A stretch of DNA of 64,000 bases from NCBI GenBank assembly GCA_943789425.1, contig CALSUB010000001.1, forward strand, positions 1 to 64,000, in the 5' to 3' direction. The position numbers and the translations under genes are program-made. Below, piece after piece: positions 32,673 through 59,350 of the stretch. Within the stretch, counting starts at the first letter, position 1, and each line of letters starts with the position of its first letter. The DNA comes from an uncultured Luminiphilus sp. Lineage in GTDB: Bacteria > Pseudomonadota > Gammaproteobacteria > Pseudomonadales > Halieaceae. Under the pieces are notes generated by a model that did not search any database, was not told the DNA's origin, and saw only the letters and a program-made list of their open reading frames with translations.

Positions 32673-32678
32673 GCGGAG

Positions 32679-36644: not shown

Positions 36645-36681
36645 CGATTAGCTCCCTATCAAACATACTGACGCAATTATA

Positions 36682-38887: not shown

Positions 38888-38901
38888 AGAGCACCTTCCT
38901 A

Positions 38902-40075: not shown

Positions 40076-40099
40076 TGGAGATTAGGCGAGGGGGCAGGG

Positions 40100-40633
40100 C
40101 TAGTGGCTCAGTGCACCATGCTCACCAATCAGGTCGGTGATCGAGTCTGCATTGAGTATTTCTATCCAGTACCCGTCGGGGTCAGTGATGAACGCGAGTC
40201 CTTTCATGGTGCCATCATCGGGCTTTTTGACGAACTGAACACCGAGTTGCTCAAACCGATCACAGGCTGCAGAGACATCCGGCACCGTGATGCCGATATG
40301 GCCAAAGCCTCTAGGGTCGGCATTGCCGCTATGGTAGCCCTCAAAAGCTTGGTCTGACTCAGTGCCCCAATTATGGGTGAGCTCCAGTAAGGCACTCTGC
40401 CGAAACGTCAACCGCGACCGGTCAGTCGCCTCTGTTGGTAGTGGCTTGTCAGCGTGGTTTGTCGGGTAACCCAAGAAGTACAGGGAAAAGGACATTTCAG
40501 CGAAGTCGACGCGCTGGTAGAGCGTCATGCCCAGCACCTCTTGATAAAAAGCAAGCGATACTTCGGGATCGCGAATACGGAGCATGGTCTGATTGAATAC
40601 GTAGCCAGCGGTGGCGGGATCTTGCTGAATCAT
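40100..40633 (-). CDS. gloA: Lactoylglutathione lyase (glyoxalase I)
   Basis: 177-residue VOC-fold isomerase that turns the methylglyoxal-glutathione hemithioacetal into lactoylglutathione. Motifs: [24 protein letters not shown] (first glutamine ligand region), [21 protein letters not shown] and [10 protein letters not shown], matching Zn-type GloA. It is compact and complete. It is convergent with the AraC gene (24 bases) and divergent from the bicupin gene across about 200 bases. Confidence 0.9.
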
Positions 40634-40835
40634 GGGTGAGCCCTCTTGATGTCACAAGGGAGCGAAAATAAGCTTCACTCGCTTGCAATACAAGTGCGGA
40701 CTTTGCTTATGGTGCAAATCTTTCGTCCTCAAGGGGAAAATGGTCAGTGCGGCCATGTTCCTGCCTTCTGACTTGGCCCATAATCGGGTAGCGTATAAGT
40801 TGATCGAATAATACGATAGATAAGGGGAGCATGGC

Positions 40836-42057: not shown

Positions 42058-43302
42058 TTAGTGCGTGTTGGAAAATTCTTTTGGGTATTTCCCCAGTAAG
42101 AGAATTAGCACCACCGAGACCAGGAACAAGCCCGACGCGACGGCATAGCCGTAGTCATAACTGCCCGTTTGGTCATAAACAGAGGCGAAAATCATCGGCG
42201 CGGTCCCAGAACACACGGCGAGAGTGGCGTAAAGAATAGAGTAGATCTTGGCGTAGTGCGCCAGACCAAAATATCGGGCCGCCAGAAATGCCATTAGGTC
42301 GAGTTCTGCGCCTGCGGCAAACCCGATCAAAAAGGCAGCGAGGGCCGCGGTCTCGAAGCTTTGGGGCCCGTATAGCAGATAGGCGCCGACAGCCGGCACG
42401 GCTAAGCACCAAGCCGCTACCCCGGGCGCCCAAAAGCGATCGACCAAGTACCCGACCACCACTCTGCCAACGATAATGGAGATGCCGAAGATGCTCTGTA
42501 CTGACGCCGCTTGTTCTCGGCTGAATCCGTCATCGGTAAGCGAAGGCAGCAGATTAGGGCCGATACCGGAGAAGCCCTGATAGGCAAACAAAATCGAGAG
42601 CAGTAAGACCCAAAATCGATATCCTCGAACCGCCTCGCCAAGGGTCAAGCCGCTGTTAATGGCGGCAGAGTTAGCAGACGTTTCCTCTTCTAGAGCATCG
42701 GCGGTGGTATCGAGGGGCTTAAACAAGAAAAACAGGGTAGGCCAAGCCAGCAGAATGGGGACTAACGCCAGTCCCATATAGGCGCCGCGCCAGCCGAACT
42801 GATCGGTAAGCCAAACCGTGTAGTGGGGTGCGACAGACGCACAAATACCGGTCCCTGTCAGGGCTAACCCTAGCGCTAGCCCGCGACGCTTAAAAAAACT
42901 GGTCGCGATCGCGCGGGTCCAGGTGACCGGGATGGTGCCTGCGCCAAGCAATGCCATCATGCCGTAGGCTAGGAATAGCATCCAGAGTTGACCCTGAATT
43001 TGCGATGCGGTGAATAGGCCGAGGGACAGCCCGATCATGGAGGGCAGTACAACCCGCCGCGGTCCGTATTTGTCGTTAAGCCAGCCGATTAACGGCGAGG
43101 TCAGGGCACCTAAGCCCGAGCTGAATAAAATGGCGGCTTGGAATTGCGCTCTGCTCCAGCCGAACTCTTCGGTCACCGGCGTGAGCAGTGCGCCAATCGA
43201 GTAATAGGGTAAGACAAAAGAACTGCTCACGATGCCGATGCAGGTTGCCATGATCAGGGGCCATCGTTGTGCGAGCTCTTCCTCGGAGCGGGTCATGATC
43301 AT
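42058..43302 (-). CDS. MFS transporter, monocarboxylate/oxalate-formate-type
   Basis: 414 residues with 12 predicted helices (first near 18-40, VSSSFVLPYYSIGALLTPV). The TM1/TM4 pattern and GWSRAQFQAAILFSSGLGALTSPLIGWLNDKYGPRR are typical of the OFA/MCT group, which moves monocarboxylates. It is last in the minus-strand catabolic run, two bases after the ACMSD-like amidohydrolase. I infer it moves substrate or a carboxylate intermediate of that pathway. The final 150 bases to the bicupin show no gene. Confidence 0.85.
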   Translation of the reverse strand: MIMTRSEEELAQRWPLIMATCIGIVSSSFVLPYYSIGALLTPVTEEFGWSRAQFQAAILFSSGLGALTSPLIGWLNDKYGPRRVVLPSMIGLSLGLFTASQIQGQLWMLFLAYGMMALLGAGTIPVTWTRAIATSFFKRRGLALGLALTGTGICASVAPHYTVWLTDQFGWRGAYMGLALVPILLAWPTLFFLFKPLDTTADALEEETSANSAAINSGLTLGEAVRGYRFWVLLLSILFAYQGFSGIGPNLLPSLTDDGFSREQAASVQSIFGISIIVGRVVVGYLVDRFWAPGVAAWCLAVPAVGAYLLYGPQSFETAALAAFLIGFAAGAELDLMAFLAARYFGLAHYAKIYSILYATLAVCSGTAPMIFASVYDQTGSYDYGYAVASGLFLVSVVLILLLGKYPKEFSNTH

Positions 43303-43303
43303 A

Positions 43304-44320
43304 TTAGGGTGTTATCCGTAACAAGGTTTTGGCGTTACGACTCATCGTCTCGGCCAGTGTTGGGTCGACATCGTGGGTCATGGCATGTTGGTCCCAGCCG
43401 GCAAAATTAGTCCCTAACAGTAATCGCTCAGTCCCCATAATATCGATCACCCATTTGAGCACCCGGGGATCATGGACATGGGTATCAAACCAAAGCTTCT
43501 GCAGTGATTCCTCGAAAGCCCCTTCGTACTGAAGGTGTTCCGGTACCCATGGGCGTTTGGTACAAGCGCGATTAAATCGACCGATCAGCGAAGTCATGGT
43601 GCCGCCAGCATGGCTCAGGCAGATGTCGAGGTTCGGGTGACGATGTAATACCCCGCCGAAAATCAGTGTGGCGACGGCAATTGATTCTTGTGCAGCAAAG
43701 CCGGTTAACAAATCGAGATCGAATTGTTTGAGATTAGGGTCTCCCGCCGGCCCATCGATGCCGGCTGGACTGGGGTGAATCATGAGGGGCACGTCGAGGG
43801 AAACCACTTTCTCATAAAAGGCATCGAGTGCGGGATCGTTTAAAGGGCGACCAATATCAGTCCCAATGTAGGCGCCCAGCAGATCAAGCTGCTGCACCGC
43901 TCTCTCAAGCTCTTCGCAAGCGGCTGGAATATCCTGCATGGGCAGTGCTGCAAAACCCGCCAGCCGAGTCGAATGCTGATCGACAATGGCGGCGAGCGCG
44001 TCGTTGTGGGACTGACAAAATCGGATCGCGTCGTCAGCGCTGATGTGATGAAAATAGGTCAGTGGGTTGGGCGACAGCACCTGAAAATCAATCTCGGCAT
44101 CATCCATGTTGGCCAATCGCACCGCGCTGTCCATAAAGGGGCTGCCCTCATATCGAACGCCGTCGAGCCGATAATCACCGACTCGAAACCACGGATCGCC
44201 GGCTTCGGTATAACCGATTTCTGGACCATGTATCCCCGCGGTGCCCATAGAACCCGCCAGCACGGCATGTGCGTGGATATCGATTGACTTTGCTTTGCTG
44301 AGCGCCTGACGATCGGTCAC
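43304..44320 (-). CDS. Amidohydrolase family protein, ACMSD/decarboxylase type
   Basis: 338 residues with the TIM-barrel metal ligands of this superfamily: IDIHAHAV (HxH), a histidine in MIHPSPAG, HAGGT and a late LLLGTNFAGWDQ segment. It resembles ACMSD, gamma-resorcylate decarboxylase and related ring decarboxylases or hydrolases. The usual late GSDYP-like motif is GTNFAG here, so the last metal aspartate or its loop may differ. Upstream in the run is a 2Fe-2S ferredoxin (52 bases). The reaction is inferred as decarboxylation or hydrolysis of a cyclic intermediate. Confidence 0.8.
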   Translation of the reverse strand: MTDRQALSKAKSIDIHAHAVLAGSMGTAGIHGPEIGYTEAGDPWFRVGDYRLDGVRYEGSPFMDSAVRLANMDDAEIDFQVLSPNPLTYFHHISADDAIRFCQSHNDALAAIVDQHSTRLAGFAALPMQDIPAACEELERAVQQLDLLGAYIGTDIGRPLNDPALDAFYEKVVSLDVPLMIHPSPAGIDGPAGDPNLKQFDLDLLTGFAAQESIAVATLIFGGVLHRHPNLDICLSHAGGTMTSLIGRFNRACTKRPWVPEHLQYEGAFEESLQKLWFDTHVHDPRVLKWVIDIMGTERLLLGTNFAGWDQHAMTHDVDPTLAETMSRNAKTLLRITP

Positions 44321-44372
44321 GCTATCCTCCCTGCGGGGTACTAAGGTGTCTCACTGGGTCGGTTGCCGCGCA

Positions 44373-44702
44373 TTATTCCTCTGGCGCGATGACCATGGGC
44401 ATCCCTTCCATTTCTGGGGTGAGGGGTAATTGGCAGCTGAGCCGCGAGCGCTCAGGGTCATAGAATTCTGCGTATTGCAGCAACATCAGTTCGGCTTGGT
44501 CGCGCTCAGGCAACTTGCCCATCCAGCTCGGGTCGATTAAGACGTGACAGGTGGCGCATGACGCGCATCCGCCACAGACCGCCTCAATGCCAATGTCCTC
44601 GTCGTAGAGCACTTGCATCAGCGTGGTGTGACCCTCGCCTTGGGTGACGGTTTTTTCTTCTCCTTCACGTGTGGTTACCTTCACACTAATGACATCCGTC
44701 AT
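44373..44702 (-). CDS. Adrenodoxin/putidaredoxin-type [2Fe-2S] ferredoxin
   Basis: 109 residues with the vertebrate-type cluster motif CGGCASCATC and a fourth cysteine in RLSCQLP. These ferredoxins donate electrons to P450s. Two P450 genes lie upstream in the same run, and no ferredoxin reductase is in the window, so the reductase would be encoded elsewhere. Its ATG overlaps the SDR stop by 4 bases (ATGA), so it is translationally coupled. Function with P450 is inferred but strong. Confidence 0.88.
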   Translation of the reverse strand: MTDVISVKVTTREGEEKTVTQGEGHTTLMQVLYDEDIGIEAVCGGCASCATCHVLIDPSWMGKLPERDQAELMLLQYAEFYDPERSRLSCQLPLTPEMEGMPMVIAPEE

Positions 44703-45497
44703 TGCTCACTGTCTCCTTTTTTGCTGGTTATTGCTGAGTCGCTTGTGATGCCGAGCCCTAATCCGCCGTCAATATCAATCATTGCGCCGGTCACCCACTC
44801 TGCGCAGATAAGAAACGCCATCGCTTCTGCGACTTCCTCTGTGGTGCCGATTCGCCCTAGGGCGTGCAAGTCTGCCATTCCCTCAAGCCGTTGTAATGCA
44901 GTTTTGTCATCCATCAGTCCGGCACGTTGATTAATCTCGGTGAAGACCGCTCCCGGCAACAGGCAGTTTACGCGGATTTTCTGTTCACCCAGCTCCGCTG
45001 CCAGTACTCGGGTGAGTCCTTGCACCGCCGCCTTCGTAGCGGCGTAAGGGGAGGCTCCGGGGAAAGCCCGTCGCGTATGAATCGAGCCCACAAAAATCAC
45101 AGCGCCTTCGCGCGGGGCAAGGTGGGGGGTGGCGAGTCCGGTCAGTAGCATTGCGGCGATCACATTGGTATTGAAAATCTCCTGCAGTGAGGACTCCTCC
45201 AGTTCGGTAATAGCGCCTCGATACATGTTGCCAGCGTTGTTGATCAACGCATCAATTTGTCCCCCATGGGCCAGTGTGGCAGCGATCAGCTTTTGCCGAT
45301 CAGACGCCGCAGTGATGTCGGCAGCGACGCCGTGGCAAGTTGGGGCCCAATTCGTCGGCGGCGGCTTCGATTTTGTCAGGTCGACGCCCACAAATCGTGA
45401 CCCGGGCTCCGCGTTCGATACAGTGACGCGCGGTGCCAAAGCCGATGCCAGAGCCGCCGCCCGTGATCAAAATCGACATGCCCTCTAGGGATTTCAT
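44699..45497 (-). CDS. SDR-family oxidoreductase, frameshifted
   Basis: 265 residues once one base is dropped near 45341. The N-terminal part (MKSLEGMSILITGGGSGIG, Rossmann loop) is in the frame of the upstream ThuA gene; the rest continues as ADITAASDRQKL, INNAGNMYRG, GSIHTRRAFPGASPYAATK (Ser/Tyr/Lys catalytic set) and a C-terminal DIDGGLG. It uses NAD(P). Substrate unknown; in this run it likely oxidises a hydroxyl made by the P450s. It overlaps the ferredoxin gene by 4 bases. The start is ATG 45495-45497. Confidence 0.83.
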
Positions 45498-46193
45498 GAT
45501 GATCTGGTCTCCGTCGAGTGCCCACTGGGTGGCAGCGCGCAGCAACTGTGCGTGAGTAGGGTGATTCAGCGATTCGCTATCGTGACCGAGTGCGTCATAG
45601 ACAACCCGTCCCTGTCCTACCCGATGCCGCCAGATCACCGGTTGCGCTGTGGGCATTGCATGACTGAGCCCTGTGGCCAACACGGTTGTCTCCGGATTCA
45701 GCGCAAGATCGCTATACAGTTCGTCGTGAACAGTGAAAGAGGGCAGGTGGCTCAGCGCCGCATTTGGCTCCATAGCAACTGTGACCGGTTCGGGAGGTGG
45801 ATGCCAGCTTGAGCCCCAGACCCAGCGACCCCCCAGCAACGATTGCCATTCGGGCCAGTCCGAGAAGCAAATACTGGCCGTGTGTAATGCTAAGAGCGCG
45901 CCACCTTTCGTGAGGTAGTTTTGCAGTGCTGCTCTTGCCGTGCCGGATGGCGAGAACGCCTCGCTATCGCGATAGGGGTCGTACTTCTCGCCGATCATTT
46001 CCCAGCGTAGGGCATTGATGCTCAAAAGGTCGACCGGTGATTCAGCTAACCCGGCCAGGCCCGCTTCGAGATCCCACTCGATGCGAGACTCGATGCCCAA
46101 TGGCGCGAGTATCGTGGCCAGTGCCTCTGATGACGCGGCAAAGTCATGAAAGATACCTCCCGCTAAAATGAGATGAGTCAGCGGTTTCTTCAT
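45498..46193 (-). CDS. ThuA-like protein, reads in frame into the following SDR gene
   Basis: About 232 residues. ThuA signatures: LTHLILAGGIFHDF, GGALLALHTASICFSDWPEWQSLLGGRWVW, SFTVHDELY and VVYDALGHDSESL. No stop separates it from the SDR start; the frame continues DGDQIIMKSLEG into the SDR Rossmann fold. So it is a real ThuA-SDR fusion, or a base was gained or lost between (the shifted frame gives an ATGA overlap, as at both other junctions nearby). Its ATG overlaps the upstream SDR stop (ATGA). The reaction is unknown; see the other ThuA at 34623. Confidence 0.75.
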
Positions 46194-46931
46194 CCTCGCG
46201 GCAGGTGCGCCATGACGCTATTGGATACGCCGCCATCGATGACCAGCTGATGGCCATTGATATACTGTGCGTCTTCTGAGTCCAAAAATAATACCGCCTG
46301 GGCGATGTCATTGGCGTCTCCCAGTTTGCGCAACGGAACGCCACCACCGCGAACCGCTCTGACCTTGGGGTCCGCATAAATCGGTTTTGACATGCCTGCA
46401 TCGATGAATCCAGGCGCGATAGCGTTAACGCGGATGCCGCTAGGGACCCCACTCAATCGACATGGCTTGGGTCATATTGGCCATCGCCGCTTTGGTGCCG
46501 CTGTAGAGCCCGACGCCGGGCGCGGGGTGAATGCCGTTGATCGATGTGAAGTTGATGATGTGGCCAGAGCCGCGCGACATCATGCCCGGCGCCACTTGCC
46601 TTGCGCACAGGCAACTCCCCAGCAGGTTGATATTGAGCACGTCGATGTAGTCTTGAACCGATTGCTCTTCGAGGCCACCGAAGCGGACGATCCCTGCGTT
46701 GTTCACTAACAAGTCAGGCACCTCGCCAAACGCGGCAAAAGCCGCTTCCACTTGCTCAGGCGAGGAGACATCGGCTTCGATACCGACGGCTCCCGGCAGC
46801 GCGGCGGCAGCGCGCTCGACCCTGTCTGCTCCTAAATCGATGATGCCCACCCGGTAGTGATTGTCAGTGAGTACCTTGGCAATATCGGCCCCGAGCCCTG
46901 CGGCTCCGCCTGTCACGATGGCTGTTTTCAC
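46190..46931 (-). CDS. SDR-family oxidoreductase (FabG-like), frameshifted
   Basis: 246 residues after removing one base in the GGG run at 46443-46445 (IEWGP then SGIRVNAIAPG). Motifs: VTGGAAGLGADIA, LVNNAGIVRFGG, FTSINGIHPAPGVGLYSGTK (catalytic Tyr/Lys) and VIDGGVSNS at the end. It is a classical NAD(P)-dependent SDR. ATGA overlap with ThuA downstream; upstream is a 120-bp gap holding a 13-bp repeat. Substrate unknown; in this run dehydrogenation of a cyclic alcohol is plausible. Confidence 0.86.
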
Positions 46932-46993
46932 GTTGCGATCCTTCTCTTATTTATTTTTGCCGGTACGCCTGCACATCACGTTGCCTTTACACC

Positions 46994-47026
46994 GCGGATG
47001 GATAGTGCGGATGGATAGCGCGGATG
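46994..47026. repeat. 13-bp tandem repeat
   Basis: GCGGATGGATAG plus a variable T/C base occurs twice in tandem (46994-47006 and 47007-47019), with a third partial copy GCGGATG (47020-47026). It lies in the short gap between the amidohydrolase and SDR genes of one transcript, so it would be transcribed. A role, if any, is unknown. Confidence 0.7.
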
Positions 47027-47051
47027 CACCGACGATGTGGTGACGGGCTGT

Positions 47052-48404
47052 TTATCGTGCCAACCCCATTGAATCAACCAGCTGTCGAGTCAGGACACGC
47101 TCCGAGTATTCGCTGACCCGCCATCCGGGTAGCTCCCAGTTTTTCGGTGGGGGTGACGTCAGGTCAACGAGCTTTCCGTCTTTCATGATATGGCGGAACC
47201 GGTGTTGGTCCCCCAGCTGGGTGATGACTTTTTCGGGCTCTCCGTCGAATATCAGTAAGTCAGCGAGATAGCCCGGTTTGATGCAGCCTAGCTCCCCCTC
47301 TCGCTTGAGGGCGCGCGCGCCCTGTTCGGTTGCGCTGTTAATGGCCTGCAGCGGCGTCATACCAAGATCCTCGACGAATACCTGCAGTTCACGATAGTGC
47401 CAATCTCCGTAGGGTGTCAGGCTGAAACCACTTTCGCTGCCGGTAAGCAGCGGGACGCCCGCGTCATAAGCGGCACGGAGCGTGCCGACACTTTCCGTGA
47501 TCTCTGCCCGGAAGACTTCTCTAAGACCTTCATCGGAGCCAATGGCAGGACCATAGTCGGCTAAGTTAGCTTGGAAGGTGAAGGTGGGTACCAAGGGAAC
47601 TTTGCGATCGACAACGACCTTCAGTGCTTCGTCATCCATATAGGTCGCATGCAGGATCATATCGAATCCAGCAAGTGCGGCGTCGCGCGTGCTGGCCGCA
47701 TTGCGGCAATGGCCTACGACAGGTATGCCGAACTGATGTGCGGTATCGCACACCAATTTCAGTTCATCCAGCGTCCAGGTAGAAATTTCTCCCGGCTCCT
47801 TACCGGGACGAATCGGTAAGCCGCTGACATGCACCTTGATCCAGTCCACGCCGGTTTTTATTTGCTTATGAATCTCACGAACAATTTCAGCAGGTGTGTG
47901 CACGATCCGGGCGTACCCGCGCGTGCCTTCGTCAGGGAGTAAGCGGGTGGCGGTACCGCCGACGCAGTTGATCAAGACATTACCGCCTGTTGTCATACGG
48001 GGCCCTTCGATAACGCCACCTTCGATGGCGTCACGCAGATCGACCCCGACATCGAATACGCAGTCAGCATCAAAGAAGCTGGTAAAACCGGCGCGCAATA
48101 CCTTTTGTGCATTGACCCCGGCCACCAAGGCAGCCAGTCCGTAACGACGATGGAAGAACAGCTCATCGTTACTGTTGGGCTGATCAAAGCTAATATGGCA
48201 ATGGCTGTCGATCAGTCCGGGCAGCACGCGACAGCCGCTGGCATCAATCTCTGAGTGCGCGGCGTCGACAGGTAGGTGTGTGGCTGCGTCAGTGCCGACG
48301 TGAACAATTCTCGGGCCATGAACGAGGACGTCGCATCGGGTCGGCTCGCTCCCAGTGCCATCGATCACCATCCCGTTTTTGATCAGGGTATAAGTGTCAC
48401 TCAT
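47052..48404 (-). CDS. Metal-dependent amidohydrolase (imidazolonepropionase/prolidase-like)
   Basis: 450 residues with the canonical set: LPGLIDSHCHISFD (HxH), WIKVHVSG (carboxylated-lysine site), VVGHCRNAAS (His), MILHATYMD (His) and a late SESG/TGSESGFSLTPYG segment. The C-terminal beta region ends LADLLIFDGEPEKVI. It likely hydrolyses a cyclic amide or lactone intermediate. It overlaps the GntR gene by 4 bases (ATGA). Start is ATG 48402-48404. Family is clear; substrate unknown. Confidence 0.86.
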   Translation of the reverse strand: MSDTYTLIKNGMVIDGTGSEPTRCDVLVHGPRIVHVGTDAATHLPVDAAHSEIDASGCRVLPGLIDSHCHISFDQPNSNDELFFHRRYGLAALVAGVNAQKVLRAGFTSFFDADCVFDVGVDLRDAIEGGVIEGPRMTTGGNVLINCVGGTATRLLPDEGTRGYARIVHTPAEIVREIHKQIKTGVDWIKVHVSGLPIRPGKEPGEISTWTLDELKLVCDTAHQFGIPVVGHCRNAASTRDAALAGFDMILHATYMDDEALKVVVDRKVPLVPTFTFQANLADYGPAIGSDEGLREVFRAEITESVGTLRAAYDAGVPLLTGSESGFSLTPYGDWHYRELQVFVEDLGMTPLQAINSATEQGARALKREGELGCIKPGYLADLLIFDGEPEKVITQLGDQHRFRHIMKDGKLVDLTSPPPKNWELPGWRVSEYSERVLTRQLVDSMGLAR

Positions 48405-49108
48405 ACGGAATACTCCTCATTGATTGCACGGGGGAGTCTCTCGACAGGCTTTTTTTTGTTCAATGCGATGAACCGCATGAGCGCATCTCCTTGCTCCAAG
48501 GTGTGACGTTGTAGTGCTTCTCTGGCGACTTCTGCGTCGCCTGCAACGATAGCGGAAATGATGGCGTCATGGTCTGCCTGATTTTTCTCCAGCCGGCCTG
48601 GCGTCATGACTTGAAAGCGGCGATACGGCAGTACCCGCAGTGACAGCCAATCGGTTGCTTCGATCAGTATTTTGTTATGACAGCCTCTGACGATACCGTG
48701 ATGAAAAGCGCTCCCCAATTTTGCGTACTCGTTAGGGTCTTCCTGGTTGCGCAAGTTATCGGCGGCTGATTCATGGATGGTGACTAAGCGTTTTTTTTCA
48801 GCCTGGCTCATACGCGTTGTGCTGAGAAACGCGGCAGATCCTTCAAGCTCTGACAGGGCCTCGAATAGGTCTAACAGCGTGCCGGAGTCTAGCTCGCTGA
48901 CTACGGCTCGTCGGTGGGCAGATTTGGATATGAGACCGGCTTGCACGAGCTGCGTGATCGCTTCACGAACAGGCGTTCGTGATACACCAAATCGAGTGGC
49001 AAGACGACCTTCCTCCAGTGAGGTGCCTGGTACAAGGGATCCGTTGAATATCTCGCTCTCGATGGCAAGGCGAATGGTGTCAGCCTGTGTGGCCTCACGT
49101 TCTGTCAC
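48401..49108 (-). CDS. GntR-family regulator, FadR/FCD subgroup
   Basis: 235 residues from GTG 49106-49108 (VTEREATQADTIRLAIESEI). N-terminal winged HTH (TSLEEGRLATRFGVSRTPVREAITQLVQAGLI) and a C-terminal FCD ligand domain with likely metal-binding histidines (FHHGIVRG, DHDAIISAI). The long upstream open frame to 49420 overlaps the P450 gene and is not used. Inside the run, between P450s and the amidohydrolase. I infer it senses a pathway metabolite and represses through the palindromes at 51594-51626. Confidence 0.88.
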   Translation of the reverse strand: MTEREATQADTIRLAIESEIFNGSLVPGTSLEEGRLATRFGVSRTPVREAITQLVQAGLISKSAHRRAVVSELDSGTLLDLFEALSELEGSAAFLSTTRMSQAEKKRLVTIHESAADNLRNQEDPNEYAKLGSAFHHGIVRGCHNKILIEATDWLSLRVLPYRRFQVMTPGRLEKNQADHDAIISAIVAGDAEVAREALQRHTLEQGDALMRFIALNKKKPVERLPRAINEEYSV

Positions 49109-50333
49109 GTCGAGCCTCCTCTGCTGAAAAGGCGCCACCAATGAGCAATCGGTATTGACCCCAGTTGCGCCGCTCGGTGGCCGCATCAGGCACCGGTGGG
49201 TTGCCTGGGTCCTGCCGCGCATGATGCTGTAACAGGCTTTTGAGAAGGTTAGTGAGCGTGCCGTAATGTGGCGCTTGGCTCGGGTCTTTTCCTTGCCCCA
49301 GTCCGCCGGCGATGTCACGCCCAAAACAAGTGTGAATCCCGATGCCAAAGGTGAGTCCAAATGGGGGAATGCGATCAGCCACCACCCGATGGGGATTAAA
49401 GCGCGCTGCGTCTTCGCCAAAAATGGCTGTTTCTACATTGGCAGACATCAAGTCGATGAGCACGTTATCGTCGGCTTCAACATGAGTCCCGTCGGGGAGC
49501 GTAAAGGCTTCGCTTGCCTTTCTCCAGGCTACGGGACTCGCGGGATGTAAGCGAAGACTTTCATGAAGGCACTGTTGCAGGAAAGCATCATCCACCTTAA
49601 TGCGCTCCGCATCGTCCGGGTGTGCCTGACACCATTGCGTGATCTCATGAAAACTGTGGGTCAGCGCATTGGCTGAGCTGTGCGCGCCAGCTTGCATGAA
49701 AAACGCCACTTCTCTAAGAATCATATTGTCGTCGAGGTCTTGCTTATCGCGATTGGCAAGCAGAACGCTGAGGATGTCACGAGGCATGTCATCCTCGACC
49801 GCAGCGCCAGATTCAATCCGCTTGAGGATCAACTCTCGACGCAACTTTGAGGGCGTCAGAAAGGCTTCGTCAAACTCTGCCAGTGCTGCCGAGACCTCTT
49901 CTCGCACGGTATCTCTGTCGCGCGTTGAGTGAAATAAAGTGGCGCCCTCACTAAATTTACGAGTGAGTCGAACGAGGGTGTCAGTCTCTTCTTGTGAGCC
50001 TTGCGTGCGATCGATGCCAGCGATATCAGCGCTCAAATTGATGTTGACGCGAAAACCAAATTCGGGGAGGTCTAGGTGTCCCTGTTGCAAGTAGGGGGCG
50101 AGCGTTTGAGACAGGGTGCGGGGATAGACTTCGCTTTCATAATACCGCGCAAAGTTTCGCCGAAAGAGTTTCCACTCGATCGCTCTGCGGGCCGTATGGG
50201 CTTCGCCGTGAAGGGTGAGTAGCACGCGCTCTAGCAAGACGTCGCACTCGCCATACATAGACTGTACGAGCCGGCGATCGCAGAGCGCCGAAAAGGCATG
50301 TTGGTAGCCGATGACGCGAGCAGGTGCGGTCAT
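49095..50333 (-). CDS. Cytochrome P450, second of a tandem pair
   Basis: 412 residues from the ATG at 50331-50333 (MTAPARVIGYQ). Heme-thiolate loop FGIGIHTCFGRDIAG, I-helix MQAGAHSSANALTHS, ExxR in LHESLRLHP. It starts 4 bases after the stop of the upstream P450, so both are one transcript, and overlaps the GntR start by 14 bases. It hydroxylates an unknown substrate, with electrons probably from the 2Fe-2S ferredoxin. The pair is related to each other, not identical. Confidence 0.9.
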   Translation of the reverse strand: MTAPARVIGYQHAFSALCDRRLVQSMYGECDVLLERVLLTLHGEAHTARRAIEWKLFRRNFARYYESEVYPRTLSQTLAPYLQQGHLDLPEFGFRVNINLSADIAGIDRTQGSQEETDTLVRLTRKFSEGATLFHSTRDRDTVREEVSAALAEFDEAFLTPSKLRRELILKRIESGAAVEDDMPRDILSVLLANRDKQDLDDNMILREVAFFMQAGAHSSANALTHSFHEITQWCQAHPDDAERIKVDDAFLQQCLHESLRLHPASPVAWRKASEAFTLPDGTHVEADDNVLIDLMSANVETAIFGEDAARFNPHRVVADRIPPFGLTFGIGIHTCFGRDIAGGLGQGKDPSQAPHYGTLTNLLKSLLQHHARQDPGNPPVPDAATERRNWGQYRLLIGGAFSAEEARRDRT

Positions 50334-50337
50334 GGCT

Positions 50338-51540: not shown

Positions 51541-51593
51541 GAGGTGTTCTCCCGGGGGTTGGGGTCGACTAACCAGTGCGGTGACCGGTAGAG

Positions 51594-51626
51594 TGTATAC
51601 AATAGGTCAAAAAGTGTACACACTTT
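51594..51626. promoter_or_regulatory. Two phased palindromes in the P450/iorA divergent promoter (candidate GntR operator)
   Basis: TGTATACA at 51594-51601 and TGTACACA at 51615-51622 differ by one base and are 21 bp apart, two helical turns. The second lies in a perfect 7-bp inverted repeat AAAGTGT-AC-ACACTTT (51611-51626). FadR-type GntR proteins bind short palindromes of the T-GT-N-AC-A kind, and such a gene (48401-49108) is in the P450 run. Binding, and control of both runs from this site, are inferred. Confidence 0.55.
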
Positions 51627-51723
51627 ATCGGACGGCACAAAGGCGACGTGATGGTGGCAGTCCGACTTTAACAATTGCCACAGCAGTGTCATATTAAGAG
51701 CAGAACAATAAAGAGAGGGCCGT

Positions 51724-52194
51724 ATGAAGCTGACAGTGAACGGGACAGAGGTGGACATTGCCAGTGAGGGTGATACGCCGCTTTTGTGGGTATTGCGCGA
51801 CGAACTTGATCTAGTCGGCACCAAGTATGGTTGTGGCATGGCGCAATGCGGCGCTTGTACCGTCCATTTAGCGGGCCAACCCGTCCGTTCTTGTGTCACC
51901 CCGGTCTCTGCGGCAGCGGGTAAGGCAGTCGTCACCATCGAGGGGCAAGCCGATGGAGCGGCTTTAACGGCGGTGCAGCGCGCCTGGCTGGAGACAGATG
52001 TGGCGCAGTGCGGTTACTGCCAATCAGGTCAGATTATGGTGGCCACTGCGCTATTAAAGGAGAACCCTGCACCGACAGATGAGCAGATCGACACCGCTAT
52101 GGCGGGCAATGTGTGTCGATGCGGCACCTATCCGCGCATTCGCAAAGCCGTGCATTTAGCGGCCAAGTTGATCGCATCGGAGGCGATGGTATGA
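51724..52194 (+). CDS. iorA: Isoquinoline 1-oxidoreductase-type small subunit, [2Fe-2S] ferredoxin domain
   Basis: 156 residues. It has two 2Fe-2S clusters of the xanthine dehydrogenase small subunit: [21 protein letters not shown] (about residues 40-60) and [10 protein letters not shown]...CRCGTY (about 98-140). It passes electrons from the molybdenum subunit to an acceptor. Its stop is overlapped (ATGA) by the large subunit gene. No FAD subunit is present; such two-subunit enzymes use cytochrome c or similar acceptors. Confidence 0.9.
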
Positions 52195-54386
52195 GTCATT
52201 CATCAATGAATGCGGGACTCAGCAGACGGCAGTTGTTGCAAGCTGGCGGCGCTTTGTTGTTTGCCGCGGAATGTCCCATCACGTTTGCGACTAAGGCCAA
52301 TGCGGCGGGTGGCGGTGCGATGATGAACAGCTTTGTTCGCATTGACCCCAGCAACGTCATTACCATGCTGGCGAACCACTCAGAATTTGGTAACGGCGCC
52401 TATACCGTGATGACGATGATGTTGGCCGAAGAGCTTGATGTCGATTATCGCGCTATTCAGATCGAGGCGGCGCCGACATCTCCCGATTACTATTCACCTT
52501 TGTTTAGGGAATACCTGACGGCGGGTTCCGTCACCACAGGGAGCACCTGGTTGCCGATGCGAACTGCCGGCGCTAAGGCTCGCGCGATGCTCATTGAGGC
52601 GGCGGCTCAGGTTTGGGGGGTATCTCAAGCGGAACTCAGCACTGAGGCCGGGGAGGTGTATCACGCCAGAACAGGGCAACGCAGACCCTATGGGCAATTA
52701 CTCGAGTCGATTCATCGTTTAAAAATCATGCCTCCGGAGACTGTGTCGCTTAAGGATCCCAGCGATTTTAAGGTGCTTGGCAAGCCCACTCAGCGTTATG
52801 AAGGTGCCGCCAAGGTCGATGGCAGTGCTCAGTTTGGTATCGACTTGAAGCTGCCCGGTATGTTGCACGGCGCGATTGCGCGACCGCCGGTACACGGTGG
52901 TCGTGTGGTCTCTTTTGATGCGACCGCTGCCTTGAAGATGCCGGGTGTGGTCAAGGTTAAGGCGATTGGCGCTGGTGTAGTGGTGTTGGCAAAGAGTTAC
53001 TGGCAGGCACAGAAAGCACGCGGCGAGCTGAATATCACTTGGGACAGAGGTGACAATGACGGCGTCTCCAGTGAGCAGTTTTATCGCGACTATCGCGCGC
53101 TAGCAGAGCAGCCTGGCATACTGGCAGAAGATATTGGCGACGCCCTCGGTGCTTTGTCTGGCGCAGACCGCGTGATTGAGTCAGTTTACGAAATGCCCCT
53201 GCTGGCGCATGCCACGCTAGAGCCCCTGAACTGCATTGCACAGGTTTCTGAGAATGCCTGCACCATCTGGAGTGGCACGCAGTACCAATCGAATGATCAA
53301 GAAGTGATCTCCCGTTTTCTGGGGATTCCACAAGAGCAGGTCACGGTTCACCGTCCCTTAATGGGCGGGAGTTTTGGGCGCCGCTCTAGTAAGACAGCAG
53401 ATTTTACGGTTGAGGCCGTTGAGGCGGCGATGGGCGAGAGCGTGCCCGTGAAAATCATTTGGTCTCGTGAGGAAGATATTCGCAGCGGCCATTATCGCCC
53501 GCTCTTTGTCCACAAAATGCGCGGATCGCTGGATGCATCGGGCATGCCCGATGCCTGGCATCAGGTGGCGGTGGGTCAATCGCTCATGCAAGGGAGTAAA
53601 CACGATCCCGCCTATATGGTACGGGGAATCGATATTTACTCCCTAGATGGCTGTCTTCAAGAGCCGTTTGGTGTGTTCCCTTATGGGACCTCCTACCAAA
53701 TCCCGCATCACCGCGTGGAGAGCCATAACGCCCCGAGGGTGGGGATTGTCCCCCAGGAGTGGCGTTCGGTGGGGCACACCCATACCGGTATTGCTTACGA
53801 GTGCTTCTTGGATGAGCTGGCCGATGCGGGTGAAATCGATCCGCTCGAGTTGCGACTGCGTTTGACCAAAGGCCACGCGAGGATGAATCGAGTCCTTAGG
53901 GTGCTGCGTGAAAAAAGCCAGTGGGACGAGCCGCTTGGAGCAGGGCGGGGTCGCGGAATGGCGGCGAGGATCTACTCGGTATCGCCGATTGCGCAGGCAG
54001 TGGAGGTCAGTGTTGCGGATAACGGTGATTTCACCATTGACCGTGTGGTCTGCGTGTTGGATTGCGGTTTTGCGGTGAACCCACTTGGCATCGAAGGTCA
54101 AGTAGAGGGTGGCATTGCTTTTGGCTTGGGCGGTGCCGCATTCGGCAATATCGATATTGTTAACGGTGAAGTACAGCAGAGTAATTTCCATGACTATCCG
54201 GTGATTAGAATGCCCCAGATGCCCAAGGTGGAAGTGCATATTTTACCCAGCGACGAGCCGCCCACCGGTGTCGGTGAGCAGGCGACAGCCCCCATTGCGC
54301 CCGCAGTAGCAAACGCGCTGTTTAATGCAACAGGACGACGCGTTCGTCGTTTCCCCCTGTCGAGTCAAGGGTTCAAACTGGTCTGA
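52191..54386 (+). CDS. iorB: Isoquinoline 1-oxidoreductase-type molybdenum large subunit with Tat signal
   Basis: 731 residues from ATG 52191 ([24 protein letters not shown]). The twin-arginine motif indicates export to the periplasm after cofactor insertion. Later motifs: [34 protein letters not shown] and [18 protein letters not shown], the last with the catalytic glutamate of molybdenum hydroxylases. It hydroxylates N-heterocycles, aldehydes or similar compounds with water-derived oxygen. The substrate here is unknown; the family is named for isoquinoline. Divergent from the P450 run, likely the same regulon. Confidence 0.88.
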
Positions 54387-54395
54387 GGAGACAGC

Positions 54396-54683
54396 ATGGC
54401 ACTGGAGCATATGGTCTGGCTGACGCCAAAAGCGGGTGTCGGCGCCGATAAGATGGAAGAGATTTTGGCGTCGATTCGCGCGCTGACTCACATACCTGGA
54501 GTGATCGCCATTTCAGCGGGTCGCAACATCACCGATCGCGCCGGTGGTGCGACGCATGGGGTATTGGTGACACTGGAGTCGGATGGCGCTTTGCCGGGGT
54601 ACTTGCAGCACCCCGACCATCAGGCAGTCGGTGGCTCCCTGCGCGAGCACTGCGAGGTGCTCGCGCTGGATTACGAACGCTGA
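54396..54683 (+). CDS. Dabb (stress-responsive A/B barrel) domain protein
   Basis: 95 residues, beginning MALEHMVWLTPKAGVGADKMEE and with a central IPGVIAISAGRNITDRAGGATHGVLVTLES, the alpha/beta Dabb barrel. The final YLQHPDHQAVG matches the family. Such proteins act as dimers in polyketide/aromatic cyclisation or stress response; here function is unknown. Ten bases after iorB with AGGAGACAGC before the ATG, so likely the same transcript; convergent with the PQQ dehydrogenase gene. Confidence 0.82.
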   Translation: MALEHMVWLTPKAGVGADKMEEILASIRALTHIPGVIAISAGRNITDRAGGATHGVLVTLESDGALPGYLQHPDHQAVGGSLREHCEVLALDYER

Positions 54684-54687
54684 AGCG

Positions 54688-56671
54688 TTATCGCTGACTG
54701 ATGCCTTCTTCGCCCCGCGGTGCGAAGACTAATAAGGCGTTCCCCGCTTCATGGTTGTATAAACCGTAACCGGAATTAATGACCAAGTGTCCATCTCCCA
54801 GTGCGGGCCCCGACCCGCTCATCGAGCCCCCTTTGGCGACCACGCCGTTTGTCCCCGTCACGGACGTGGCGGTGTCGAAAGACCAGACAATGGCTCCTGT
54901 TTCGCTGTTGTAAATGCGAATAAAGCCGTCTAGATGTCCGGCAACGACAGCATCATCCGTTGCCGTGACCGGTGCGGAGACGCCGGGATCACAGAAGGGT
55001 CTTCCCTCGCCGCAAACATTGCTCTGCACATGGCTCCAGAGGACTTCTCCGGTGGCCGCATCAATTGCAGAGACGCCCGGTCGCGCTTTTTGCGGGTCTA
55101 GCCATTCGCCATTGCGGGTGTCATTCATATCGTTGATGGGTACGAAGACCGTTGACCCCGCTGCAGCCATCCCAAAGTGAACGCCGCCCTGAATGCTGCC
55201 TCGGCCTAGTTTGGTTTCCCAGACCTTGCTTTGTCCTGTTTCCCAGTCCAGAGCAAACACGCGGCCATCTTTCTGGCCTGCAACCACTAAGGTGCGCTCG
55301 TCACCCAAGTCCACTAATAGAGGACTGGAGGCTTGGTCGTAGTCTGGGCCATCCTCTTCGGGGCAGTTGGGATTGTCGATCATCATGCAGGCGACATTCC
55401 AGGCGTCGTCAGGGAAAGTTTGGCGGGACCAGAGTCGCTCCCCTGTATCCAGACGGACAGCGATCACCGCATCACTGTTTTGGTCTGCGGGGGAGGAATA
55501 ATTTTCCCCCGTACCAAAGATCAAGAGATTTCTGGCTACATCAACGGTGGGGCTTGTCCAGACCGGGGCGCCAGATGGTGAGAACACTTTTGTTCCCGCA
55601 CGGGTCGTTGCGAGGGAAATCGGTTGGTTGGGAATGGAATAGCTATCCCAAATAACACTCCCATCATTACTGTCGACTGCTAAAACATGCCCACGGAACG
55701 TGCAGCAGGCATAGTCTGGGTCCGCGGCGGTCACCACTTCTAACGAAGACACTGGCACGTAGAGTTTGCCCTCGGCAAACGCGGGGGGTACCGGTGAGCG
55801 TAGCGCTGTGGTGATCATCCGCGCTGGTTTGCCAAATGAGTTCCCCTGTTTCGGCATCAATGGCATAGAGGTTGGCGATGATGTCGCCAAAATAAGCGGT
55901 TGGCGTCTCATCTGGACCACGCTTGCCTAAGGTGATGCCCGTTCTTACCTCGGCACGCGCCGCAAAGGTCCATCGCACGCAGCCTGTTTCGAGGTCGAAA
56001 GCGTAGACCGTACCGTCCTGGCTACCGACAAACACGGCGCCCATAGCGATAGTCGGCTGTGAGCGCGCGCGGGTGGAGGCCGGATAGCCAAAGGCCCATT
56101 TTAGCTCTAGGCGCTCGAGCTCAGCACGGTCCAAGCCCGCGACTTCAGGTGCGACGTAGCGACGTGTGTCATGTCCCCAGCCGGTCAATCGGGTTTCGTC
56201 TAACGCGTTAAATTTGCGGTCGGGCCCCTCGCACCAAGCCACTGCAGGCGTCGCGTCGGGATCCCCCAGTCGCATCTGGGTGATGTACTCGACGATGTGT
56301 TGCTTTTGTTCGTTAGAAAGATGCGCTGCCTGAGCTTGCATAATGCCCTCTGTTACGGAGCGGTAAAGCACCTGCGGAGACATTAATTCCAACCAAGTTG
56401 TGTGAGGCGCTTTGTAGACTTGTGCTTCATGACAGCCCGCGCAGTGCGCTTGGTACAGTGGTTTGCCTGGTAGCGCATCACGATCGCCTAAGTCTCCAAC
56501 CCAGGCATATTGTTCGTCCATCGAGTTGAGGGCTGTGGGTGCGGGCTCATCTGTAGGCGGCGCACCGGTGGCCTGTGCCGCGTTGGCTATCTGGGTTTGC
56601 AGAAAAATCGCTGTTGTTATGCCGAGTACAATCGCTGCCTTCCAGTTGCGAGAGGAGGTTACTGTTTTCAT
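54688..56671 (-). CDS. Cytochrome c/PQQ dehydrogenase of polyvinyl-alcohol-dehydrogenase type, frameshifted
   Basis: 660 residues from ATG 56669-56671 with signal peptide (IVLGITTAIFLQTQIANA). A heme c motif CAGCH is at residues 77-81, then a beta-propeller with PQQ-type repeats (VYAFDLETGCVRWTF, VIAVRLDTGERLWSR, VFALDWETGQSKVWE). The signature CCTFRGHVLAVDSNDG and GAPVWTSPTVD match PVA dehydrogenase-like enzymes. It oxidises alcohols in the periplasm and passes electrons to the respiratory chain. One extra C in the six-base run at 55783-55788 breaks the frame. Starts divergent from a TonB receptor; a shared regulon is inferred. Confidence 0.85.
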
Positions 56672-56995
56672 TGTGATCGCCCCTTTAATCGGTTCATTCT
56701 GAGTGGTTGTTATGGTGTCAAACCGGGCACGTAGTATGGCACTTTCACACCACATTACCCACGCTATTGTTGCTCCACCGTTATTTAACGAATGAGCTTG
56801 CCGTAGCCATTTTCGAGCGTGATGAACCTGGGGGGGCAAGTGAGTAGTCATTTTAGAAACATCCGGACATTTGACCTCGACGAGATTTCCTGTAACGTAA
56901 ACCTTGGCAAAAGAGACGGTTAATTTCCCAGCGAGGGCACCTACGGGCCCTTCAGTTTCTATTATAAAAAATTGCCCTTCATGAGGAGACATTTT
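56672..56995. other. 324-bp divergent intergenic region
   Basis: Between the PQQ dehydrogenase and the second TonB receptor. An open frame from the dehydrogenase runs back through it but lacks any domain. A clear Shine-Dalgarno (AGGAG, 56984-56988) precedes the receptor ATG. I see no palindrome or terminator that I can defend. Confidence 0.5.
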
Positions 56996-59350
56996 ATGAA
57001 ATACAACACCTTAAATATGGCCGTGATGCTGGCGATAGCCGGCACTGGCTTGAGCACTTCGGCATCGGCTCAAAGAGAAATATCCGGCCAGATCGAGGAA
57101 GTGGTCGTGACGGCTCAGCACCGTGAGCAGAACCTGCAGGATGTGCCTGTCGCGGTCACTGCACTGGATGAATCGGCAATCGAGAAAATATTTGCCAGGG
57201 ATCTGACAGATGTAACGGGTAAAACACCCAATTTGGTGCTCACGCCGATATTAGGGAACGGTACCGCGGCGATCTCAATCCGCGGTATGCAGCTCAACGA
57301 CGTAGAAAAAAGTTTTGACCCCGCGGTAGCGGTTTATCAGGATGGCGTATACCTCCAGACCACGACCGGCGCGCTGTTGAATGTGTGGGACGCCGAACGG
57401 ATCGAGGTGCTGCGTGGCCCTCAGGGGACACTGTTTGGTCGGAATACGATTGGTGGCCTGATACATGTGATCAGGAGTAAGCCGACAGGCGAATTAGGTG
57501 GAAAGTTCTCTTACACCGTTGCAGAAGACAGCCAGTCTGACTTTAAGGGTACCTTGAATTTACCCGAGTTTGCCAATATTGCGACCAAAGCGACTTACAT
57601 GAATCTCTCTGGTGGCGGTTATTTTGACAACGCCACACGCGGAGAATCTCAAGGCGAGACGGATATGCGGATGTGGTCTGTTTCGGCGTTATGGCAACCC
57701 ACGGATAATTTTTCGCTGCAGCTGACCTATGACGATGTTCAGGACGACACGCCTACGAGGCCTGTTACCTGCCTAACGGAAGCACCTGAGTTCCTTGCTC
57801 CTCCCCTTTCACCCGCGAACGAGTGTCCTGCTTTCACAGACGATGACGCTCACAGAGTGACCTATTCGGCAATGGATCAACCTGCCAGCATAGATCTGGA
57901 ATCTTTCACGGCGACTGCGGAATGGCGGATCAATGATTCGCATAAAGCGACCCTGATTTACGGTACTCGCGATATGGAAGAGACCGCGATTCAGGAGTTC
58001 GATGCGGTGTCCTCGGATTTGTTCTGGACATCCCGTCCACAGTTTGAGGAGCAGATGAGCGTTGAGTTGCGGCTTGAATCGGACTTCGATCGTTTCCGTA
58101 CCACGCTAGGCGCCTTCATGTGGGATAGCGAGTACAACCTTTGGCAGAACAGTTATTTCTTCGGAGGCTTGTTCGCATCGCCCTGGACTAAGCAAGAGAC
58201 TGAGAATACGTCAGTGTTTGGGCAAGTCGACTTTGATTTAACCGAAACCCTAACCTTGACCCTCGGTGGTCGTTATACAAAGGACGAGAAAGAGTTCTGT
58301 CAGGTGTTTACGGCCGCTCCCGGAGAAGGTCAGTCTGCCGCTGTCACCGATTACGACGGCATTGCAAAAGTCCCACTATTCGGACATGGCACGGCGGGCA
58401 TATGCCCGAGTTGGTCGGATGGGGTGATCAATAATAATTTTGTGAATCCCGTGACAGGTCAAGACGATGTGTTCAATGGCAGTCAGTCTTGGAGTGAGTT
58501 TACGCCGAAGGTAGGCCTGACTTACAACATGGATAACGGCATCCTTTACGCTAGCTACACAGAGGGATTCCGATCTGGCGGTTACAACGGGCGAGCCAGT
58601 GCTCCTGGCAACGCGGGGCCCTATGAGCCAGAGAATGTTGAGAGTATTGAATTTGGTTTTAAGACCAGCTGGCTTGACAACACGGTTCAATTTAACGGCT
58701 CTTTCTTCTCTACCGATTACGAGCAGAAGCAGGAAGATGTGGTGTTGCCTGATCCCGTCGCCATCACCCTAACGCTGGTTCAGAATGCCGCCGGCGCTAC
58801 GATGGAAGGCGCTGAGTTTGAACTGGTCTGGATGCCAACTGCCGGACTGAGTTTGAATGCCGCGCTCGGTTATCTCGATGCCTCGTATGATGATTACACG
58901 ACCTTAGACCCGGTGGGTAATTCCGTAGATAAGAGTGGATTTGATCTTCGACGTGCACCTGAGCTCAACTATTCTGTGGGTGCCAATTGGGAAATCGAGG
59001 TAGCGGATGTCGGGTTTGTGGTGGCTAACGTCAATTACCGATGGTTGGACAACTATCAAATTCAATCAAACGCGGGTGGACCTAAGCACTATCGCAGCGA
59101 TCCCACTAAACAGGAGGCATTTGGCCTGCTGGATGCTTCAATCAATTTCGAGACTGAGCACTGGAGGGTGTCACTGTTTGGCAAGAACTTAACGGATGAG
59201 TCGTATTGGTACCACACACTGGACGTGAGTGCGGCGTATGCGGCGACTTCGGCGACAGATCCATCGCCTAATTACGTACCAGGGCTATGGACTTTCGGTA
59301 CGATTAACCGTCCTCGTTATTTTGGTGCAGAAATTCAGTATCGTTTCTGA
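56996..59350 (+). CDS. TonB-dependent outer-membrane receptor
   Basis: 784 residues from ATG 56996. Signal peptide to about residue 28 (GTGLSTSASA), TonB box (IEEVVVTAQHREQNLQDVP), plug (AISIRGMQLND, VLRGPQGTLFGRNTIGGLI) and a long barrel ending RYFGAEIQYRF, the final outer-membrane strand. It is intact, unlike the other receptor. Likely imports a substrate for the surrounding oxidases; ligand unknown. It is followed by a strong terminator at 59376-59401. Confidence 0.93.
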   Translation: MKYNTLNMAVMLAIAGTGLSTSASAQREISGQIEEVVVTAQHREQNLQDVPVAVTALDESAIEKIFARDLTDVTGKTPNLVLTPILGNGTAAISIRGMQLNDVEKSFDPAVAVYQDGVYLQTTTGALLNVWDAERIEVLRGPQGTLFGRNTIGGLIHVIRSKPTGELGGKFSYTVAEDSQSDFKGTLNLPEFANIATKATYMNLSGGGYFDNATRGESQGETDMRMWSVSALWQPTDNFSLQLTYDDVQDDTPTRPVTCLTEAPEFLAPPLSPANECPAFTDDDAHRVTYSAMDQPASIDLESFTATAEWRINDSHKATLIYGTRDMEETAIQEFDAVSSDLFWTSRPQFEEQMSVELRLESDFDRFRTTLGAFMWDSEYNLWQNSYFFGGLFASPWTKQETENTSVFGQVDFDLTETLTLTLGGRYTKDEKEFCQVFTAAPGEGQSAAVTDYDGIAKVPLFGHGTAGICPSWSDGVINNNFVNPVTGQDDVFNGSQSWSEFTPKVGLTYNMDNGILYASYTEGFRSGGYNGRASAPGNAGPYEPENVESIEFGFKTSWLDNTVQFNGSFFSTDYEQKQEDVVLPDPVAITLTLVQNAAGATMEGAEFELVWMPTAGLSLNAALGYLDASYDDYTTLDPVGNSVDKSGFDLRRAPELNYSVGANWEIEVADVGFVVANVNYRWLDNYQIQSNAGGPKHYRSDPTKQEAFGLLDASINFETEHWRVSLFGKNLTDESYWYHTLDVSAAYAATSATDPSPNYVPGLWTFGTINRPRYFGAEIQYRF

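Follow-up and report, generated by a model that had tools for sequence, protein, structure and literature searches.

A conserved, apparently undescribed Luminiphilus gene cluster that probably breaks down a cyclic compound

What is the task of a compact run of oxidative and hydrolytic genes in the genome of an uncultured Luminiphilus sp. (Halieaceae), and do these genes belong together at all? The stretch of DNA analyzed, hereafter the window, comprises bases 1-64000 of contig CALSUB010000001.1 (assembly GCA_943789425.1; a 1.7-Mb genome in 18 contigs, 79.6% complete). It carries ten minus-strand genes lying opposite plus-strand genes for IorA, IorB, and a Dabb-domain protein (51724-54683), with a shared divergent promoter between the two groups. 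A sequence-only reading of the window had proposed that these genes, with a quinoprotein and a TonB receptor beyond them, form an unrecognized catabolic system. Our analysis points to a genuine, conserved, and apparently undescribed catabolic cluster, which probably breaks down a ring compound; we consider it likely that the genes form a regulated catabolic cluster directed at one class of small, cyclic natural compounds that aquatic bacteria often encounter. Gene content and conservation are the grounds for reading it as catabolic, and from them we infer every reaction and the order of the steps.

All gene families named by the earlier reading were found in place by Pfam matches and translations of open reading frames (ORFs). 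Next to the promoter lie two cytochrome P450 genes, P450a (50338-51540, 400 aa) and P450b (49095-50333, start approximate, about 410 aa), followed on the same minus strand by a GntR/FCD regulator (48401-49111, start approximate; Pfam GntR and FCD), the amidohydrolase-fold protein AH1 (47052-48404; Amidohydro_1, Xaa-Pro dipeptidase/ochratoxinase-like), SDR2 (46440-46931), the ThuA-like protein ThuA1 (45300-46193), SDR1 (main frame at 44699-45439), a [2Fe-2S] ferredoxin (44373-44702; Pfam Fer2), a second amidohydrolase-fold protein, AH2 (43304-44320; Amidohydro_2, ACMSD-like), and an MFS transporter (42058-43302; Pfam). The transporter is of carboxylate type by its best matches, its top NCBIfam matches being L-lactate, oxalate/formate, and bile-salt MFS proteins, all below cut-off. 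The plus-strand group consists of an IorA-type two-[2Fe-2S] subunit of a molybdenum hydroxylase (51724-52194; Pfam Fer2 and Fer2_2), the IorB-type molybdenum subunit (52191-54386; Pfam MoCoBD_1/2), and the Dabb-domain protein (54396-54683; Pfam Dabb). Beyond it, again on the minus strand, is a periplasmic cytochrome c-pyrroloquinoline quinone (PQQ) propeller dehydrogenase, the quinoprotein (54688-56674, start approximate; Pfam Cytochrome_CBB3 and PQQ).

We analyzed the co-occurrence of these genes in 58 genomes, i.e., the window's own, 36 of the same genus, and 21 others of the order. Orthologs of P450a were present in 12 genomes (nine full-length, one in two pieces in G011, and contig-end fragments in G029 and G024), and the records that hold its closest relatives bear the titles Luminiphilus sp. 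or Halieaceae bacterium. AH1 was likewise found in 12 genomes, 11 of them in common with P450a (Fisher 6e-10), while AH2 (at least 58% identity) occurred in 11 genomes with nine in common (Fisher 1e-6), and IorB (at least 79%) in 11 with ten in common (Fisher 1e-8); the Fisher values, like the divergence correlations given below, are descriptive and overstated because the genomes are related and kinship was ignored. Identity thresholds for the co-occurrence and locus counts were chosen after the listings had been viewed. In the two additional genomes with AH2 (G021 and G036), the contig terminates inside the cluster and carries its neighboring genes, and the three P450a genomes in which AH2 is missing (G013, G025, and G024) have contigs that end before its place. 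G022, which has no close IorB, shows a piece at the contig end.

Conservation extends well beyond the order. A scan of 84,980 species genomes for P450a relatives gave 186 confirmed loci, of which 80 were kept for comparison (L051 and L052 coming from a single metagenome-assembled genome, MAG); locus counts are restricted to the 43 loci that reach 15 kb, so L052, the Myxococcota-labeled L100, and the Nonomuraea locus L102, for example, are not among them. By record title, the carriers belong to Halieaceae, Porticoccaceae, Steroidobacteraceae, Comamonadaceae, PS1, OCS116, Rhodobiaceae, Novosphingobium, Sphingomonas, and actinomycetes. They thus span alpha-, beta-, and gammaproteobacteria as well as actinomycetes, many of them unrelated inhabitants of water and soil, include records of named isolates such as Pseudohaliea rubra DSM 19751, Sphingomonas sp. 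Y57, and Novosphingobium sp. ERN07, and count among them one deltaproteobacterial MAG that a tree tool placed in Myxococcota. At least four of five core partners were present in 35 of the 43 long loci, two P450s in 37, SDR2 and SDR1 in 40 each, AH1 in 36, ThuA1 in 34, and a molybdenum hydroxylase of IorB or CoxL type in 27; the ferredoxin was found in 10. Pairwise divergences of five core proteins also correlated between loci (r 0.61-0.87; 21-57 loci, kinship ignored). Of 274 gammaproteobacterial genomes, only 2, one of them the window's own, matched the AH2 profile at E 1e-70, yet AH2 lies near the P450s in 28 of the 43 long loci, so that the clustering goes beyond chance, and chance clustering was rejected. 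The record of one locus, L059, is titled as a Klebsiella pneumoniae MAG; the matching genome, G044, was placed in the window's order, and the title looks wrong.

Co-conservation, the check that the sequence-only reading had itself named, was thus borne out, and same-genus synteny with co-occurrence in other genomes supports its view of one functional unit. Its catabolic make-up agrees with gene content and conservation, and its upstream extension, described below, holds as well. What the locus comparison does not sustain is a fixed composition across taxa and a tight link to the TonB receptor beyond the quinoprotein. Uptake systems substitute for each other between taxa, as do the two kinds of molybdenum hydroxylase, and genes read as a branched-chain-type ABC transporter, one of them Pfam-checked, occur at several beta- and two alphaproteobacterial loci. 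Only one or two core partners were found at four long loci (L047, L056, L060, and L077), three at the betaproteobacterial L075 and L080, and just two or three of the five at several betaproteobacterial loci. Searches of plasmids returned a copy in Novosphingobium THN1, a lone P450 in Streptantibioticus, a part-module in Azospirillum, an AH1 relative at 38% in Rhodococcus, and a ThuA relative at 43% in Nonomuraea.

Both amidohydrolase-fold enzymes lack the usual beta-8 Asp. Among nearly full-length, stop-free sequences, AH2 carries Asn (Asn305 in the window) at the catalytic beta-8 Asp position in 32/32, aligned to the GTD motif of ACMSD, and AH1 carries Glu (Glu324) at the corresponding metal-site Asp position in 39/40, aligned to the GTD of its solved relatives. 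By sequence and by structure AH2 is nearest to ACMSD (PF04909), with LigY and LigJ further off; it has the ACMSD fold and metal-site histidines and retains the HxH motif and the other His ligands. In the related IDCase, to go by entry titles, an Asp-to-Asn change (D323N) has been engineered. AH1 is nearest to Xaa-Pro dipeptidase-type, peptidase-like amidohydrolases (202 bits by profile, full-length), a likeness that extends over its whole length to the Xaa-Pro dipeptidase, arginine carboxypeptidase, and ochratoxinase types; measured against COG1228-type amidohydrolases, it has Glu in place of the beta-8 Asp. If the proposed roles are true, the replacement of the catalytic aspartates by Asn and Glu implies ring-opening chemistry unlike that of the nearest solved relatives of AH1 and AH2. 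We also considered AH2 as a PF04909 dinuclear oxygenase (ARO; PMC10811679) and rejected this, as far as the accessible part of that description goes: the His ligands are kept, the best solved matches are ACMSD, and the match to the ARO entry 8sm7 is weak.

Relatives of AH2 also occur in other surroundings. Nine genomes have one at 44-47%, and in the five loci fetched, which represent a second type of cluster in the same genus (L121-L125; 43-46% identity), the Asn is kept. An AH1-like gene (31-33%) stands beside the AH2 relative in 5/5, its protein retaining the Asp in 5/5, and an SDR is nearby in 4/5; the two loci scanned, L121 and L123, have a fatty-acid-desaturase-type oxygenase and a xylose-isomerase-like gene nearby. 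Glu-type AH1 was found in Novosphingobium THN1 and also in G148, the other of the two genomes matched by the AH2 profile. Because Azospirillum and the second Luminiphilus cluster type both have an Asn-type AH2 but not these P450s, AH2 seems to belong to a reusable lower cassette for ring opening that would be joined to different oxygenases; the Glu in AH1 marks the P450 cluster, and the Asn in AH2 the wider cassette. An example of the second cluster type is L121:4929-12894, and the Azospirillum module also holds an ABC transporter, a sugar phosphate isomerase/epimerase, and a TauD dioxygenase.

In 34 sequences of the P450 family, E257, R260, and C335 (the ExxR residues and the heme Cys) are invariant, and the FxxGxHxCxG heme motif is present. 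An acid-alcohol pair is the usual feature of the P450 I helix; here the usual acid is absent from 34/34 sequences, being replaced by His in 28, Phe in four, and Gln in two, while the alcohol position is held by Thr in 32 and Ser in two. Pfam matched only the P450 domain in P450a and P450b, with no fused redox domains. The predicted model of P450a (predicted local distance difference test score, pLDDT, 90) has no close solved relative and reaches a template modeling (TM) score of about 0.71 by query length with many P450s; the comparison gave no lead on the substrate. Its first structural match is CalO2, with CypX at 16-17% in the structure listing; against PDB the family profile found only two sequences under 1e-15, both CypX/CYP134A1-type (75 bits), and the top NCBIfam match of both P450s is the CYP134A1 subfamily TIGR04538, at 48.1 bits and, for P450b, 57.5 bits, against a cut-off of 500. 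P450a residues 355-361 form a conserved D.HQ.GT stretch after the heme Cys loop and before the last long helix, which looks unusual.

These remote characterized relatives, CypX and CalO2, are biosynthetic, which raises the idea that the cluster makes or modifies a secondary metabolite instead of degrading one. No cyclodipeptide synthase, nonribosomal peptide synthetase, polyketide synthase, or terpene synthase was recognized among the ORFs scanned (29677-63537, the scope of all such statements below), however, and both the exported oxidoreductases and the uptake genes (TonB, MFS, or ABC of branched-chain type) are in keeping with import. We therefore regard biosynthesis as highly improbable. 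CypX differs from the Luminiphilus P450s in its remoteness, in not being the first structural match of P450a, and in the lack of a recognizable cyclodipeptide synthase beside them.

The export of an oxidoreductase is read from the translation of IorB, which carries a twin-arginine-like signal. IorA and IorB have the make-up of a molybdenum hydroxylase, i.e., a two-[2Fe-2S] subunit and a molybdenum subunit with the conserved Glu, and the GEQ motif of the latter is conserved, also in relatives; both score below every NCBIfam cut-off. The two-subunit architecture, the export signal, and the conserved GEQ are shared with molybdenum hydroxylases of the isoquinoline 1-oxidoreductase (IorAB) type.

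The two gene groups share the 183-bp promoter between P450a and IorA, where paired operator-like sites, AGTGTATACA and AAAGTGTACACACTTT, stand at 51592-51626. In the alignment of same-genus promoter regions AGTGTAT.CA and AAAGTGTACACACTT are identical in 9/9 while their surroundings have diverged, and the promoter core of these sites is palindromic. The sole zero-mismatch site for AGTGTAYACACTTT in the source genome lies in this divergent promoter; at up to two mismatches the genome holds 10 matches, against six for the reversed control, so that the weaker matches are near chance. The GntR protein of the cluster probably binds the operator-like site, and the P450 operon and IorAB-Dabb would form one regulon. 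An AraC-type regulator further upstream (39116-40075) may control the Rieske oxygenase side of the locus, to which we return below.

Several observations weigh against a single, coherent catabolic cluster. AGTGTAYACA, at no more than one mismatch, was not found before the quinoprotein, the TonB receptors, or the Rieske block in a search of the window. Five genomes that lack the P450s have relatives of the quinoprotein (62-64%), and G044 has no close IorB, its best matches reaching only 36-38%. G148 groups AH1 and AH2 with a Rieske gene, but its P450 match within the fetched stretch amounts to a weak 30% (an IorA-like gene lies about 10 kb beyond the group), and Azospirillum brasilense plasmid p3 (L113:11995-18675) combines an Asn-type AH2 (57%), SDRs, and a ThuA (51%) without a P450. 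Conversely, the P450a relative on a Streptantibioticus plasmid has none of the partners within 31 kb. In terms of chemistry, hydrolysis by AH1 and AH2 is uncertain because the usual Asp is replaced, and the likeness to CypX, being remote, says little about the substrate.

Taken with the conservation described above, the gene content nevertheless suggests a route in which an external compound would be taken up, oxidized, and opened. The TonB receptor would carry the compound into the periplasm, where IorAB, exported by twin-arginine translocation, and the cytochrome c-PQQ dehydrogenase may oxidize it, probably towards a carboxylate, which the MFS carrier would then import. Inside the cell, the two P450s, fed by the [2Fe-2S] ferredoxin that is likely their partner, would hydroxylate the skeleton; SDR1 and SDR2 would convert hydroxyls to ketones; and the activated ring may then be cleaved or trimmed by AH1, AH2, and ThuA, through hydrolysis, hydration, or decarboxylation. 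Control of both divergent transcripts would fall to GntR, via the conserved operator-like site. That this amounts to an undescribed pathway, in Pseudomonadota (including Luminiphilus, PS1, and OCS116 plankton), actinomycetes, and a Myxococcota-labeled MAG, in which a divergent P450 pair and Asn/Glu amidohydrolase-fold enzymes attack a widespread cyclic metabolite by a ring opening unlike that of the nearest solved relatives, we put at slightly under an even chance.

As to the substrate, our tentative first guess, itself a little short of even, is a nitrogen-containing ring (a lactam, imide, diketopiperazine, or fused heterocycle); a terpenoid or alicyclic acid is also quite possible, and some other compound is unlikely. 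A pathway for terpenoid or alicyclic carboxylic acids would have P450s and SDRs form 1,3-diketones for C-C cleavage by the amidohydrolase-fold enzymes, with no nitrogen involved. The P450-plus-SDR pairs, the carboxylate-type MFS transporter, and the solved relatives of AH2, i.e., ACMSD and, more distantly, LigY and LigJ, which act on carbon skeletons, would suit such a pathway, as would old-yellow-enzyme genes at 7/81 and limonene-epoxide-hydrolase-like genes at 8/81 of the loci clustered (families named from single members). Nevertheless, the relatives of AH1 bear the names of C-N hydrolases, the presence of a molybdenum hydroxylase points to a heterocycle or an aldehyde, and no CoA-ligase or beta-oxidation genes were recognized among the ORFs scanned, which leaves the terpenoid pathway a serious but doubtful alternative. 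A steroid- or bile-acid-type pathway was rejected, as acyl-CoA genes were not recognized among the same ORFs. If the substrate is found, the conserved gene set could serve as a marker that one class of dissolved organic matter is being turned over in lakes and in the surface ocean.

Sunlit water commonly contains flavins and their photoproducts. By enzyme class, the nearest described pathway that we found is the lum cluster of Nocardioides simplex, which degrades lumichrome, judged by the accessible part of its description (PMC12746152). Like the Luminiphilus locus, this catabolic cluster, which serves a poorly soluble ring compound, has a P450, several hydrolases, a xanthine-oxidase-type molybdenum hydroxylase, and a Rieske enzyme, so the window could hold a cluster, or a near variant of one, for the catabolism of lumichrome (riboflavin), with methyl oxidation by P450, dismantling of the pyrimidine by hydrolases, and opening of the quinoxaline by molybdenum hydroxylase and Rieske enzymes. 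However, the part of the description available gives lum a single self-sufficient P450 with fused ferredoxin and reductase domains, a thiamine pyrophosphate (TPP) decarboxylase pair, an alpha/beta Rieske dioxygenase, and a 46-kDa extradiol dioxygenase (PMC12746152), whereas the window has a pair of P450s, each about 400 aa long, and a ferredoxin encoded separately, and its IorAB and alpha-only Rieske enzyme are both of a different subtype. No fused P450, TPP decarboxylase pair, alpha/beta Rieske enzyme, or extradiol dioxygenase was recognized among the ORFs scanned; the only protein of the dioxygenase superfamily there is a 177-aa glyoxalase type, and the TPP-enzyme genes at 10445-13365, 30 kb away, encode a 2-oxoacid:ferredoxin oxidoreductase. 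ThuA, GntR, MFS, exported IorAB, and the quinoprotein further set the Luminiphilus cluster apart from lum as described. Since the lum-defining parts were not recognized, we did not file the cluster as lum, a rejection made on described enzyme-class features rather than on sequence comparison, and we consider the lumichrome explanation very unlikely, though some flavin-like substrate is conceivable. Among the matches listed in the openly licensed PMC literature, as far as their text was accessible, none describes the cluster, which is not proof of novelty.

Some of the genes of this presumed ring-degrading cluster are not intact in the window. SDR2 is represented by its N-terminal 163 aa, with the frame broken near 46441, ThuA1 is frameshifted into the start of SDR1 (a ThuA match and an SDR fragment share one ORF, and the SDR1 start falls in the ThuA1 frame), and the quinoprotein is frameshift-split. 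These breaks would fit a copy that is decaying, with SDR2, SDR1/ThuA1, and the quinoprotein as true pseudogenes; yet P450a, P450b, AH1, AH2, IorAB, and the MFS gene are all open, and in 13 of the 14 relatives compared, two of them at 95-96% identity, SDR2 has an open frame of at least 246 aa, the sole exception being L027, whose own frame is broken. The quinoprotein is a single ORF of 635-715 aa in the eight relatives without a contig-end cut, and ThuA1 measures 230-232 aa in close relatives without such a cut. GcvT (28302-29427), a sodium:solute symporter (30905-32672), and TonB receptor 1 (36682-38887), all outside the core, are each broken into two frames likewise, which makes indels introduced in the assembly the likely explanation for the breaks; decay is improbable. 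The overlapping starts and stops that the earlier reading had noticed are thus real in part: the short overlaps at AH1/GntR and SDR1/ferredoxin stand, while others are artefacts of the sequence.

Upstream of the core, the presence of a Rieske oxygenase, a second ThuA, a bicupin, and a TonB receptor, suggested earlier as a possible extension, was confirmed at 34623-41906. The block runs from ThuA-like protein 2 (34623-35477, minus strand; Pfam ThuA 77.5 bits; syntenic in G028, G034, G011, and G021) through the alpha subunit of the Rieske non-heme oxygenase (35496-36644, minus strand; Pfam) and TonB receptor 1 (minus strand; Plug and barrel in two ORFs here, one 734-aa ORF in G028 and G034) to the AraC-type regulator (plus strand; Pfam, syntenic) and a ChrR-like bicupin (40836-41906, plus strand; Pfam Cupin_7 in two stretches, with a 51% relative in the L103 cluster); a glyoxalase gene was also confirmed within it. 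Rieske orthologs show 77-95% identity in same-genus genomes and 56% in G044, and among the long loci the Rieske gene occurs in 8/43 and the bicupin in 4/43. The entire stretch from ThuA-like protein 2 to recX/DUF3014 is syntenic in G028, G034, and G011, TonB receptor 2 excepted, and this synteny supports the view that the Rieske, bicupin, and AraC block belongs with the cluster.

TonB receptor 2 (56972-59350, plus strand; Pfam) is present, as the sequence-only reading had it, and only its linkage proved loose. Among same-genus loci it adjoins the quinoprotein in the window and in G013 (98%) and was not seen beside it in G028, G034, G011, G023, or G024; a 55% relative lies inside the G044 cluster. 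On the far side of the upstream block, symporter and amidase genes at 29677-33635 adjoin it and are syntenic in L022, L025, and L119, the last of which also has an iron-type alcohol dehydrogenase gene.

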